A stretch of DNA of 53,473 bases, taken from positions 1-53,473 of the forward strand of contig SBBG01000127.1 of the NCBI GenBank assembly GCA_005240065.1. Reading direction: 5' to 3'. Shown one piece after another: positions 26,218 to 42,669 of the stretch. This stretch comes from Gammaproteobacteria bacterium. Lineage in GTDB: Bacteria > Pseudomonadota > Gammaproteobacteria > Ga0077554 > Ga007554. The translations under genes and the position numbers were made by a program. Each line of letters starts with the position of its first letter. The first letter of the stretch is position 1. The notes beneath the pieces were generated by a model, which made no database searches, was not told where the DNA came from, and was given only the letters and a program-made list of their open reading frames with translations.

Positions 26218-26317
26218 TATTAACCAGGCAATTAAACTCATCTGCTTTTTCAGCTTTTATCTCTCATGCAGGGTACCTCGCGCGCACCATCCGCGCGGCG
26301 CGTGAAACGCGTCCTAC
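26218..26317. repeat. Copy 4 of the palindromic repeat, with left terminal arm
   Basis: It begins TATTAACCAGGCAATTAAA, matching the left end of copy 2, continues with CATCTGCTTTTTCAGCTTTT, and holds a decayed core from 26268 to GTCCTAC at 26317. It fills the spacer between sixA and the exopolyphosphatase gene. Confidence 0.65.
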
Positions 26318-26352
26318 AGAAACCGCCAAAATCTGCTCATGAGCAGCGGCTA

Positions 26353-38770: not shown

Positions 38771-40476
38771 TGAACATCCCGCACACACTCGAAGGGCGCC
38801 GCCGCACCCTGTTCGCCCGCCTGGTCGGCAACGGACTGGCCCAGGCGGGAGCGGCAGTGGGCACGGCGTGGCTGGTCAAATGGGTGTTCGACCACATGCT
38901 CGCGCCGGGATCTTCCACGCCCGTCGCCATGGTGATCTGGGCGGCGGCCGGATTCGCCGCGGCGGCGGGTATCATCGCCTGGTTACGCCTGATGGAACGT
39001 GTCGACGCCGAGCGCCTGGGACAGGATTACGCGGCCGATGTCCGCATGGCGCTGTATGACCGCCTCGGTTCGATGGCGCCCCGCGCATTGCAGAAACGCA
39101 GCCACGGCGGCGTGGCGCTGCGCTTCGTCGGGGACATGACGGCGTTGCGACGCTGGGTGAGCCTGGGGTTGGCGCGACTGAGCGTGGCGGGCATGATGAC
39201 GGTAGCGGCCTTGGCGGCGCTGGCATTGATCCATTGGCCGCTGGCGCTGGCCATCGGCATGGTGCTTTGCGCCGGCGCCTCGGTCGCGCTCAGCCTGGGT
39301 GAGCGCCTGCGCATGGCGGCGCGCGAATCGCGGCGGCGTCTTTCCCATCTGGCCACGAACGTCAACGAGAAGGTGGCGACCATGGCGGTCGTGCAGATGT
39401 TCGGCCAGTCCGGCCGGGAACGCGAGCGCATGGCGCGTCAGGGCCGGCGTCTTCAGGAGGCGATGGTAGACAAGGCGCGCGTCGCCGGCAAGATCCTGGC
39501 CGTCACCGAAGCCACGGCGGCACTCGCATCGGCGGCGGCGCTGCTGCTGGGGGTGTTCGAAGTGGAGGCTGGGCGGGCCAGCATCGGCACGGTAGTGGCG
39601 GCCATGACCATCGTCGGAATATTGATGCCCCCGCTGCGCGATCTGGGACGCGTCCAGGAATATTGGCACGGGGCGCGAGTGTCGCGGGAAAAATTGCAGG
39701 AATTCCTTGACGCCCCCTCGCTGGTGGCGGAGGCGCCCGATGCGCCGGACCTTCGTTTGGGCGCAGGCCGCCTGGAATTCGATGCGGTAAGCGTGGCGGG
39801 AACATTGGAAGGGATCATCGCGACGGTGCAACCGAATACCGTGGTGACCGTGGTCGGCCCCAACGGCGCGGGCAAATCGACCCTGCTGTCCCTGGCGGCG
39901 CGCCTGATCGACCCCGAACGAGGCGCGGTACGCCTGGACGGCCAGGATCTGGCCGGGCACAGCCTGGCTTCGGTGCGTCGCGCGGTGGGTATGACGGGAC
40001 CTGATCTACCCCTGCTGCGCGGCACGGTGGAGAAAAACCTGCTCTATCGCTGGCCGGATGCACCGGCACAGGAAATCGCCCGGGTGTGGGCCTTGTGCGG
40101 CATCGACGAAGTGCTTGCGGACTTGCCGGAAGGCGCGAAAACCCGCGTCGCGGAAGGCGGCGTGGGTCTGTCGGCGGGGCAGCGTCAGCGCATCGCCCTG
40201 GCCCGCGCTCTGCTTGGCAATCCCCCCTTGCTGTTGCTCGACGAAGTCGACGCCAATCTCGACCCGAAGGCCAACGCGGTGGTGGACCGGGCGCTGGCCG
40301 GGTATCGCGGCACGATCCTGCGCGTCAGCCACCGGCTGGATCATGTGCGGAACGCCGACGTCGTCTGGTACCTGGCGGACGGACAGATACTGGAAGCCGG
40401 CCCCCCGGCAAAGGTATTGTCCGGCGATGGCCCGACCGCGCGATTCTTCCGCACCGGTCTGGCGGTGGCAAGTTGA
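38770..40476 (+). CDS. ABC exporter, fused membrane and ATPase domains, atypical Q-loop
   Basis: 568 residues. An exporter-type membrane domain of about six helices (20-300) is followed by an ATP-binding cassette. Walker A is VGPNGAGKST near 365, the signature LSAGQRQRIALARALL near 466, Walker B with catalytic Glu LLLLDEVDANLD near 487, and the switch His is in ILRVSHRLD near 519. The position of the Q-loop glutamine (GMTGPDLPLLRGTV) holds proline, and the usual aromatic A-loop residue is not evident. It would act as a homodimer or with an unseen partner. The start overlaps the preceding stop. The hydrolase gene overlaps its own stop. Confidence 0.87.
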   Translation: MNIPHTLEGRRRTLFARLVGNGLAQAGAAVGTAWLVKWVFDHMLAPGSSTPVAMVIWAAAGFAAAAGIIAWLRLMERVDAERLGQDYAADVRMALYDRLGSMAPRALQKRSHGGVALRFVGDMTALRRWVSLGLARLSVAGMMTVAALAALALIHWPLALAIGMVLCAGASVALSLGERLRMAARESRRRLSHLATNVNEKVATMAVVQMFGQSGRERERMARQGRRLQEAMVDKARVAGKILAVTEATAALASAAALLLGVFEVEAGRASIGTVVAAMTIVGILMPPLRDLGRVQEYWHGARVSREKLQEFLDAPSLVAEAPDAPDLRLGAGRLEFDAVSVAGTLEGIIATVQPNTVVTVVGPNGAGKSTLLSLAARLIDPERGAVRLDGQDLAGHSLASVRRAVGMTGPDLPLLRGTVEKNLLYRWPDAPAQEIARVWALCGIDEVLADLPEGAKTRVAEGGVGLSAGQRQRIALARALLGNPPLLLLDEVDANLDPKANAVVDRALAGYRGTILRVSHRLDHVRNADVVWYLADGQILEAGPPAKVLSGDGPTARFFRTGLAVAS

Positions 40477-41354
40477 AAAAATTCATCTCAGGGATAATCG
40501 CAATGCTTGCACATGCCGCCTCTGTCATGGCTGTGGAAACGGCCGTTCAGGACATCACACCGGACCCCAGCGTGGTATCGCGCCGGACGCTGCCAGATGA
40601 TCCTGGCCAGAGTTATTTTATCTATGTCCCGCGCCACGGCGGCGACAAGGCGCCGATTTTCGTCACCGTACACGGCATCTCGCGCAATGCGCGCGAACAC
40701 GCCGAGCGCTTCGCGCCTCTTGCTGAACGCTACGGCGCGGTATTGATCGCGCCGTATTTTTCAAAAGATCGCTTTCCCGATTACCAGCGGCTGGGGCGCA
40801 AAGGAAAAGGCGAGCGCGCGGACAGCGTGCTGGATCGCATCGTCGCCGACGTGGGCCGGCTGACTGGCGCCCGCACCTACAAGTTATACTTGTTCGGTTA
40901 TTCCGGGGGAGCACAATTCGTGCATCGGTACACTTTGGCGCACCCCGAACGCGTCGCGGGGCTGGTCCTGGGCGCGCCCGGCTGGTACACCTTTCCCGAC
41001 CCCGCGCTGAAATACCCCCAGGGTATCGGACCTTCCAAGCGCCTGCCGGACGTCGTGTTCGATCCGGCCCGTTTTCTCACGATACCCACCTGCGTGCTGG
41101 TGGGCGAACGGGATGTGCGGCAGGACAAAGCCTTGAACAAGGCGACGGCCATCGAACGACAGCAGGGAATAACGCGCCTGGAACGCGGCGAGCACTGGAT
41201 CGCCGCGATGACACGCGCCGCCCAGGCGCAGGGCTTCAAGACATCCTATACATTTCACACCCTCCCCCGCTCCCGCCACTCCTTCACGCAGAGCATGACA
41301 CGGGGCGGCATGGGGGAGCGCGTTTTTGATTGTCTGTTTGGAGAAAAAAAGTGA
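40473..41354 (+). CDS. Secreted alpha/beta hydrolase
   Basis: 293 residues from TTG 40473, which overlaps the ABC exporter stop in TTGA and follows GGTGG. This start yields a clean signal peptide (MKKFISGIIAMLAHAASVMA) that no ATG start in the frame provides so well. The mature protein has VTVHGISRNAREHAERFAPL (oxyanion side), the nucleophile elbow GYSGG with Ser144, and a late histidine in PRSRHSFTQ. It resembles poly-hydroxyalkanoate-depolymerase-like or feruloyl-type esterases, but the substrate is unknown. It is part of the P-loop/ABC/porin module. Confidence 0.8.
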   Translation: MKKFISGIIAMLAHAASVMAVETAVQDITPDPSVVSRRTLPDDPGQSYFIYVPRHGGDKAPIFVTVHGISRNAREHAERFAPLAERYGAVLIAPYFSKDRFPDYQRLGRKGKGERADSVLDRIVADVGRLTGARTYKLYLFGYSGGAQFVHRYTLAHPERVAGLVLGAPGWYTFPDPALKYPQGIGPSKRLPDVVFDPARFLTIPTCVLVGERDVRQDKALNKATAIERQQGITRLERGEHWIAAMTRAAQAQGFKTSYTFHTLPRSRHSFTQSMTRGGMGERVFDCLFGEKK

Positions 41355-41368
41355 AAAACTTGCCTGGC

Positions 41369-41438
41369 GTAGGGTGCGTCTCACGCACCATCTGTGCGGT
41401 GCGTGAGACGCACCCTATGAAACACCGGGTAATGACGA
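41369..41438. repeat. Copy 7 of the palindromic repeat, reaching into the porin gene
   Basis: The core 41369-41418 has 21-nt arms that match at 20 positions, ending CGCACCCTAT instead of CCCTAC. The flank GAAACACCGGGTAATGACGA (41419-41438) matches the right arm of copy 2 (21672-21692) almost base for base. Confidence 0.8.
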
Positions 41439-42559
41439 CCTGCTGGATCGCCACGGCCCTGGCCGTCACTGTTGCCACACCTGCCTTGGGGAAAGAAACC
41501 CCGCCCTTCACCTTCAAGCTCGGCGGACAGGTGATGTACGACGCCGCGTGGTATCAGGGTGATGGCGCATTGAAGACACAGACGGAAGGCTATACCCACG
41601 ACACCGGATTCCGCCGCGTGCGCCTGTCCGCGCGGGGAAGCGTGTATGGCGACTGGAATTACAACGTCACCTTGAGTTTCGCCGATACTCTCAACAATAT
41701 CAGCGACGCCGATCCCGCCGGCATCCGGCAAGCGTTTGTTTCTTATTCGGGATGGAAGGGCATCAAGGTCAAAGCCGGGCAATTCATCGAACCCTTCGGC
41801 CTGGAATCATCCACCAGCTCCCGCATCACCACGTTCATGGAACGCGGTCTGCCTTATGCGTTTTCCCCGGGCAGAAGCCTGGGCGCCAGCGTCTCCACCG
41901 CTCCCGTCAAAGGGCTGTACATGGAGGCCGGGATTTTCAAGGAAGACCTGCACTCGGCCGGAAATCTCGACCAGGCGTTCACCGGCCGCATCGCCTACGC
42001 CCCCATCGACACGAAGGGCTGGCTGGTGCATCTTGGCGCAGGGGCGAGCCACCGCCTTCCAGGTGACGGCACGGTGCGATACCGCACGCCCCCCGAAGCG
42101 GACATGGCGCCAAACTGGTTCAGCTCGGGGACGATCAGGAACGTCGACGATATTCTGCTCACCGGACTGGAAGCCGCCACGGTCATCGGACCGTTTTCCT
42201 TGCAGGGAGAATATATGCGCTCCCGCGTTGATCGCAACAACGGCAGACCGGAGCGAAACCTCGACGGCTACTACGTCTATGCCAGTTGGTTCCTCACCGG
42301 CGAATCGCGTCCCTACCGCGACGGCCGGTTCACGGCCATCGACCCCCAAGGCCGCTGGGGCGCCTGGGAATTGGCCGCACGCAACAGCGCCATCGACGAT
42401 GGCAACGGCCACCGCCTGAACGACATCACACTCGGCCTCAACTGGTACATCAACCAGCACCTGCGGCTGATGGCCAACTACGTGCGCGCCGTCTACGACA
42501 GAGTCTCAGCGCAAGGCAACGCCGACATCTTTCAAGTGCGCGGCCAGGTGGATTTTTAG
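41417..42559 (+). CDS. OprP/OprO-type outer-membrane porin
   Basis: 380 residues. Signal peptide MKHRVMTTCWIATALAV...ALG is followed by a barrel starting FKLGGQVMYDAAWY. GFRRVRLSARGSVYGDWNYN and VKAGQFIEPFGLESSTSS fit the phosphate-selective porin family, and the protein ends in phenylalanine. Anion passage is a family property; specificity cannot be read. The start ATG and the first seven or eight codons come from repeat copy 7. ATG 41432 is an alternative start but lacks the basic signal-peptide N-region. It lies 62 bp after the hydrolase stop, with a strong hairpin between, so it may or may not share that transcript. Confidence 0.85.
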   Translation: MKHRVMTTCWIATALAVTVATPALGKETPPFTFKLGGQVMYDAAWYQGDGALKTQTEGYTHDTGFRRVRLSARGSVYGDWNYNVTLSFADTLNNISDADPAGIRQAFVSYSGWKGIKVKAGQFIEPFGLESSTSSRITTFMERGLPYAFSPGRSLGASVSTAPVKGLYMEAGIFKEDLHSAGNLDQAFTGRIAYAPIDTKGWLVHLGAGASHRLPGDGTVRYRTPPEADMAPNWFSSGTIRNVDDILLTGLEAATVIGPFSLQGEYMRSRVDRNNGRPERNLDGYYVYASWFLTGESRPYRDGRFTAIDPQGRWGAWELAARNSAIDDGNGHRLNDITLGLNWYINQHLRLMANYVRAVYDRVSAQGNADIFQVRGQVDF

Positions 42560-42574
42560 ATTAAACTCCCGAAT

Positions 42575-42669
42575 GTAGGATACGTCTCACGCACCACTGA
42601 CGGATGGTGCGTGAGACGCGCCCTACATGGGGAAATAAAGCTGGAAAAGCAGATGAATTTGATTGCCGA
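42575..42669. repeat. Copy 8 of the palindromic repeat, with terminal arm
   Basis: The core GTAGGATACG...CCCTAC (42575-42626) is followed by an arm AAAGCTGGAAAAGCAGATGA and ATTTGATTGCC, the reverse complement of the left arm of copies 2 and 4. It lies between convergent porin and DMT exporter genes. Confidence 0.75.

Follow-up and report, generated by a model that had tools for sequence, protein, structure and literature searches.

The window analysed here, that is, the whole stretch of 53,473 nucleotides, is one contig (C95) of a draft genome that comprises 2.68 Mb in 243 contigs. It contains a porin gene with a copy of a repeated element inside its 5' codons, preceded directly by a hydrolase gene. 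The features used in the analysis are as follows.

40470-41354, plus strand: alpha/beta hydrolase (PHB-esterase-like) gene directly 5' of the porin gene; PF10503 above the cut-off, the same neighbour at five orthologous loci (5' end approximate; stop codon TGA 41352-41354)
41340-41343, plus strand: Shine-Dalgarno-like GGAG with a 7-nt spacer to GTG 41351, from the sequence and the anti-SD duplex
41351-42559, plus strand: porin gene (Porin_O_P) counted from GTG 41351; PF07396, E = 2.1e-72, frame intact
41351-41353, plus strand: GTG at the ancestral porin start position, in a 4-nt overlap with the hydrolase stop, from alignment with five orthologues
41351-41368, plus strand: native codons MKNLPG, aligning to the orthologue N-termini MKCFP / MKCIP / MRYLP
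41369-41418, plus strand: element core, two inverted GTAG-tagged REPs (BIME-like) with the last base changed from C to T, from the profile match and the hairpin
41417-41419, plus strand: in-element ATG, proposed as the start in the preliminary description, from the sequence
41419-41452, plus strand: element right arm (profile positions 101-135), shorter by one A and without the final ~9 nt of the terminal repeat, from the profile
41432-41434, plus strand: another ATG inside the element, shared by most right arms and followed by no basic residue, from the sequence
41453-41491, plus strand: native rest of the signal peptide, TALAVTVATPALG, giving an orthologue-like peptide once joined to MKNLPG
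42574-42668, minus strand: further element copy (left arm and core), inverted, just 3' of the porin stop, from the profile
21580-21715, plus strand: full-length element copy used for comparison (copy 2 of the preliminary description), from the profile
26218-26320, plus strand: element copy (left arm and core) used for comparison, from the profile

The mature porin matches PF07396 over the complete profile (positions 1-370 of 370), as expected for a Porin_O_P domain. Five genomes of the same family contain orthologues of this porin (68-70% identity) with the same hydrolase immediately upstream, and the repeat was not present in any of them. In all five, the porin ATG overlaps the hydrolase stop by 4 nt (ATGA), while the overlap in the window reads GTGA. 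Removal of exactly 41369-41452 (84 nt) from the window joins the native parts into MKNLPG-TALAVTVATPALG-KE, which corresponds in length and layout to the orthologue peptide MKCFPAALMVAALATSPVFA. The repeat was thus inserted into the porin gene after codon 6, as the preliminary description had supposed when it spoke of recruitment into coding sequence, and the comparison with repeat-free orthologues that it proposed revealed a different N-terminus at this place.

The sequence at 41369-41450 is as first described: 41369-41418 reads GTAGGGTGCGTCTCACGCACCATCTGTGCGGTGCGTGAGACGCACCCTAT and is followed by GAAACACCGGGTAATGACGACCTGCTGGATCGCC. The core is a REP pair, GTAGGGTGCG...CGCACCCTAT. A profile built from eight other copies matched 41364-41452 at profile positions 46-135 (68.4 bits, E = 1.5e-20). 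The porin copy is therefore a remnant of a MITE-like element of about 140 bp; it comprises 84 nt (28 codons) of the core and right arm, lacks the left arm and has no element ends of its own. The codons for M-K-H-R-V-M-T do come from the repeat, and the element-derived stretch continues beyond them to MKHRVMTTCWIA, so that the repeat contributes part of the hydrophobic core in addition to the basic n-region. The single C-to-T change said to create ATG 41417 was found in comparison with copy 2, which reads CCCTACGAAACAACCGGGTG at this place, but it does not suffice: the porin copy has also lost one A (GAAACAACCGGG > GAAACACCGGG), and only because of this loss is the ATG in frame. The core has a single open forward frame (frame 1), which is the one used by the porin, and the porin frame is open across the entire repeat back to GTG 41351.

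The element belongs to an abundant family. The 10-mer GTAGGGTGCG occurs exactly 235 times genome-wide (120 forward and 115 reverse), against 7 occurrences (3 + 4) of the reversed control pattern. In 40 genome stretches and the window, 28 inverted dimers of exactly 50 nt were found, and 54 paired cores were listed, with GTAG at one end of a short palindrome (GTAG GGTGCG...). This structure, the high copy number and the frequent inverted dimers are those of GTAG REPs and BIMEs. Longer copies have the form TATTAACCCGGCAATCAAATTCATCTGCTTTTCCAGCTTTTCTCCCAAGG-[core]-GAAACAACAGGGTAATGACGATCTATTTGATTGCCGGGTTAATA, with a length of 144 nt and 18-nt terminal inverted repeats. The terminal inverted repeat TTAACCCGGCAATCAAAT was found at 75 genome sites with at most 3 mismatches, many of them exact, and its reversed control at none, as is typical of a MITE. 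We therefore call the element MITE-like, carrying a REP pair. A screen of 1.10 of the 2.68 Mb, picked to take in most contigs with terminal-repeat matches, gave 106 profile hits that score 25 bits or more and do not overlap, namely 25 full copies, 28 with left arm and core, 6 with core and right arm and 47 with the core only. Of 16 full copies, 7 have TA at either end, which fits TA duplication, although TA could belong to the repeat. Many left-arm copies end at a similar point on the right side of the core, directly following GAAAC (profile ~103-107), for example those at 26218-26320 and 42574-42668, as if loss of the right end were recurrent.

Among the listed terminal-repeat sites of this draft genome, no inverted ends lying 0.7-2.5 kb apart with a transposase between them were recognised. 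The genome has two Y1_Tnp genes; the one with both flanks covered (RAYT-like, L115 6045-6660, contig C227) sits between inverted copies, GTAGGTTGGG / CCCAACCTAC, of a different GTAG repeat, unlike that of the porin. A terminal-repeat-like end lies about 100 nt 3' of this gene. In four relatives the terminal repeat gave 1-4 matches each, all with 3 mismatches, and in genomes of the sister genus (g3) only the core part was found. The REP core is common there and the MITE arms appear in this genome only, which suggests that MITE and REP pair were joined in this lineage, either of them having acquired the other.

According to the preliminary description, the repeat supplies the start codon of the porin. 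On this reading, translation would begin at ATG 41417, the signal peptide, MKHRVMTTCWIATALAVTVATPALG, would have an ordinary length of 25 aa, and GTG 41351 would be a relic. ATG initiates translation more strongly than GTG, and the peptide made from it would be of usual length, carry two basic residues and have a hydrophobic core. The two changes (C>T and loss of one A) both make and phase this ATG, and the replacement of the ancestral ATG by GTG would fit relaxed constraint on the old start. However, the ancestral start position is retained as GTG 41351, in frame and preceded by GGAG, whose anti-SD duplex was estimated at -6.4 kcal/mol (-2.9 to -13.1 in the orthologues). The core alone folds into a 21-bp hairpin of -44.5 kcal/mol; ATG 41417 lies at the hairpin foot, and this codon and the 19 nt before it are contained in the hairpin. 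The predicted cost of opening the ribosome footprint is 40.3 kcal/mol for ATG 41417, compared with 13.3 for GTG 41351 and 24.8 for ATG 41432 (ViennaRNA, isolated RNA). Shine-Dalgarno-like bases for ATG 41417 are found only in the loop and stem of the hairpin, and the loss of a single A also occurs in the arms of other copies, so selection at this locus is not needed to explain it. The insert, at exactly 28 codons, keeps GTG 41351 in the porin reading frame; such continuity would arise by accident one time in three and is support rather than proof. Likewise, the retention of GTG and GGAG is not independent evidence, because both overlap hydrolase codons. Taken together, these features indicate that the repeat gives the porin 28 codons but probably not its start codon. 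ATG 41417 is most likely a secondary start at best, and we regard its use as the main start as rather unlikely, though it is the strongest of the alternatives.

Since GTG 41351, ATG 41417 and ATG 41432 are all in frame and ribosomes coming off the hydrolase gene could restart locally, two starts might be used to make two forms of the signal peptide, or translation might begin at ATG 41432. The latter peptide would have no basic n-region and dual use is favoured by no sequence feature, so this option appears improbable.

Another alternative is that the insertion inactivated the gene, with the porin now being lost. An insertion of 28 codons into a signal peptide is a plausible lesion, and most such insertions should presumably be purged. 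Against this, the reading frame is uninterrupted over the 380 codons that begin with ATG 41417, and the porin has diverged to the same extent as the intact hydrolase: identities with the orthologues are 0.68-0.71 for the porin and 0.69-0.71 for the hydrolase, and differences by codon position are about 0.22/0.14/0.43 in both. This pattern indicates that the porin gene is under purifying selection of ordinary strength, with no decay. The insertion is also not recent, because the element copy itself has diverged, as comparison with the profile showed. Gene loss is therefore very improbable. As ordinary constraint acts on the porin, its leader with the element is presumably functional in export. 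Judged by simple rules only, the peptide has the elements of a Sec signal peptide: a basic n-region with a net charge of +2 or +4, a hydrophobic core (best 9-mer 2.30) and small residues at -3/-1, with ALG before KE.

These data allow us to propose the following account, to which we assign a probability of roughly 0.63 as a whole: insertion after codon 6 of the porin gene, translation from GTG 41351 through the repeat, and survival by tolerance. A MITE-like element with a REP pair entered the signal-peptide codons of an operon-borne porin gene, where 84 nt of it, core and right arm, are left. Most likely, GTG 41351 at the ancestral position still serves as the start codon, and initiation there is coupled to translation of the hydrolase 3' end; coupling at the 4-nt overlap followed by elongation through the hairpin would be the simplest route. 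The product would be a 47-aa signal peptide, MKNLPG-[VGCVSRTICAVRETHPMKHRVMTTCWIA]-TALAVTVATPALG, in which the element would encode a long basic n-region and the front of the hydrophobic core, followed by the native end and cleavage region. A signal peptide of 47 aa with an n-region of about 30 aa is unusual, which counts against this account. Such insertions may survive because signal peptides tolerate added n-region residues and because a form of the element shorter by 1 nt encodes basic and then hydrophobic residues in frame.

All screened element copies were tested for open frames in genes of any type, and three more in-frame insertions were revealed. All three lie in signal peptides and are absent from the orthologues, and all four in-frame copies have the same orientation and the same frame. 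The first (L061 15783-17410, contig C43) is a full copy in the leader of an SBP_bac_5 lipoprotein, MNSIFSLPALSAAAIVLWL-[element]-NLTAC. Its native start GTG overlaps the upstream stop, and the orthologues have plain lipoprotein signals. Read-through would here set a strong hydrophobic segment before the element, a poor fit to lipoprotein topology that favours an internal start. A start at the arm ATG, giving the compact lipoprotein signal MAILLIAGLINLTAC, looks better, so a start supplied by the repeat may hold in this gene and is more plausible than in the porin. The second (L088 4226-4850, minus strand, contig C189) is a full copy in a cytochrome c lipoprotein, MRTSYRLPLHL-[element]-AGSTLTISGC, with the native ATG and the Shine-Dalgarno sequence GGAGG kept upstream; the orthologues read MSKKYFLPVLVGIVALGGC and similar. 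In both genes the arm ATG of the element heads a compact signal peptide, much as ATG 41417 would in the porin, and this speaks for the preliminary proposal. The third (L094 5783-9862, contig C120) consists of left arm and core and lies in the n-region of an exported protein of 1,359 aa, MNSHHI-[element]-LLGLFMAFVFCLALSDQAQA; the protein has no Pfam match, and one orthologue (44% identical) is without the element.

Signal peptides make up about 1.4% of codons by a crude gene call, and it is very unlikely that four of four in-frame copies fell into them by chance. Survival in a tolerant region and target choice explain this pattern equally well; in the account given above we infer survival. The element is open in forward frame 3 and is fused in frame within these four genes, as in palindromic elements of the Rickettsia type, and in that frame it encodes basic and then hydrophobic residues (KHRVMTIYLIAGLI). 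The consensus element would add 142 nt, while the variant with the right arm shorter by 1 nt adds 141 nt (47 codons) and reads LTRQSNSSAFPAFLPRVGCVSRTIRVVRETHPTKHRVMTIYLIAGLI. The shorter arm occurs in the porin, SBP and cytochrome copies as well as in a further copy outside genes; the five arms of the longer length occur in none of the in-frame cases. Compared with the element-removed peptides, peak 9-residue hydrophobicity is higher with the element in three of the four genes (1.76 to 2.30, 2.52 to 3.34 and 1.17 to 2.00). It can tentatively be suggested, at somewhat less than even odds, that the 1-nt-shorter element (141 nt, 47 codons, KHRVMTIYLIAGLI) is a portable signal-sequence module that rebuilds the signal peptide it breaks. 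If so, the element could live repeatedly in genes for exported proteins, altering the n-region and possibly the start site.

Several other candidates were rejected. The copy before mreC (L114), considered as a fifth N-terminal fusion, lies in the 5' leader, as the mreC frame of relatives starts at a conserved ATT/ATA/ATC-Lys-Pro. A core copy before modA (L056) precedes the gene's own ATG, which is 3' of the repeat. Long open frames through copies in L103, L097, L079, L049 and L065 are antisense shadow frames, judging by composition and opposite-strand coding, and the CTATG that precedes a siroheme-synthase-like start in L064 does not share the frame of that gene. Joining of flanks to find interrupted ORFs was uninformative: adjacent genes fuse if boundaries shift by 0-2 nt. 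As a separate observation, mreC in this family appears to start with a non-AUG codon (ATT/ATA/ATC before Lys-Pro-Leu-Phe; L114 7565-8600, minus strand, and L140-L145), and in several relatives there is no in-frame ATG, GTG or TTG upstream of mreC.

The four genes form a natural, orthologue-controlled set of signal-peptide insertions. With this set it becomes testable how far extension of the n-region is tolerated by a bacterial export signal, and whether mobile repeats choose signal-peptide codons or merely survive there. They also call for caution, as start-codon calls beside REPs can err in both directions.

In the open-access literature searched, we found no report of a single element family that recurs in signal peptides. 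GTAG-tagged REPs within ORFs have been described by Di Nocera et al. (2013, PMC3733652), who found intragenic copies to be more numerous towards the NH2 end than towards the COOH end; they suspected annotation errors behind the N-terminal ones, which would then be extragenic. The present repeats are similar in the GTAG tag, palindromic stem, head-to-head dimers and in-frame intragenic copies. However, the orthologues here place the native start upstream, so the copies are intragenic, and the REPs form part of a longer MITE-like element that has terminal repeats of its own. Rickettsia palindromic elements (Ogata et al. 2000, 2002; reviewed in PMC10969869) are about 150 bp long and have been inserted into many protein genes without disrupting the frame, where they encode a conserved peptide; they are likened to the present element by description, and they occur in a wide range of ORFs, whereas the confirmed in-frame copies here are all in signal peptides. 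Coxiella QMITEs (PMC5896051) are MITEs that extend or interrupt ORFs in frame, and the element resembles them in this respect; the term "signal peptide" is absent from the text of that paper. A precedent for a signal peptide is the enterobacterial RU-2, which forms that of YPO1552; the homologues have unrelated signals (Delihas 2007, PMC2759123). This is one main case among various fusions, in contrast to the four independent insertions described here, which belong to one family in one genome, all affect signal peptides and have the native start kept upstream. Thus, in-frame repeats and one repeat-formed signal peptide were already known, and four such cases in one genome look new.
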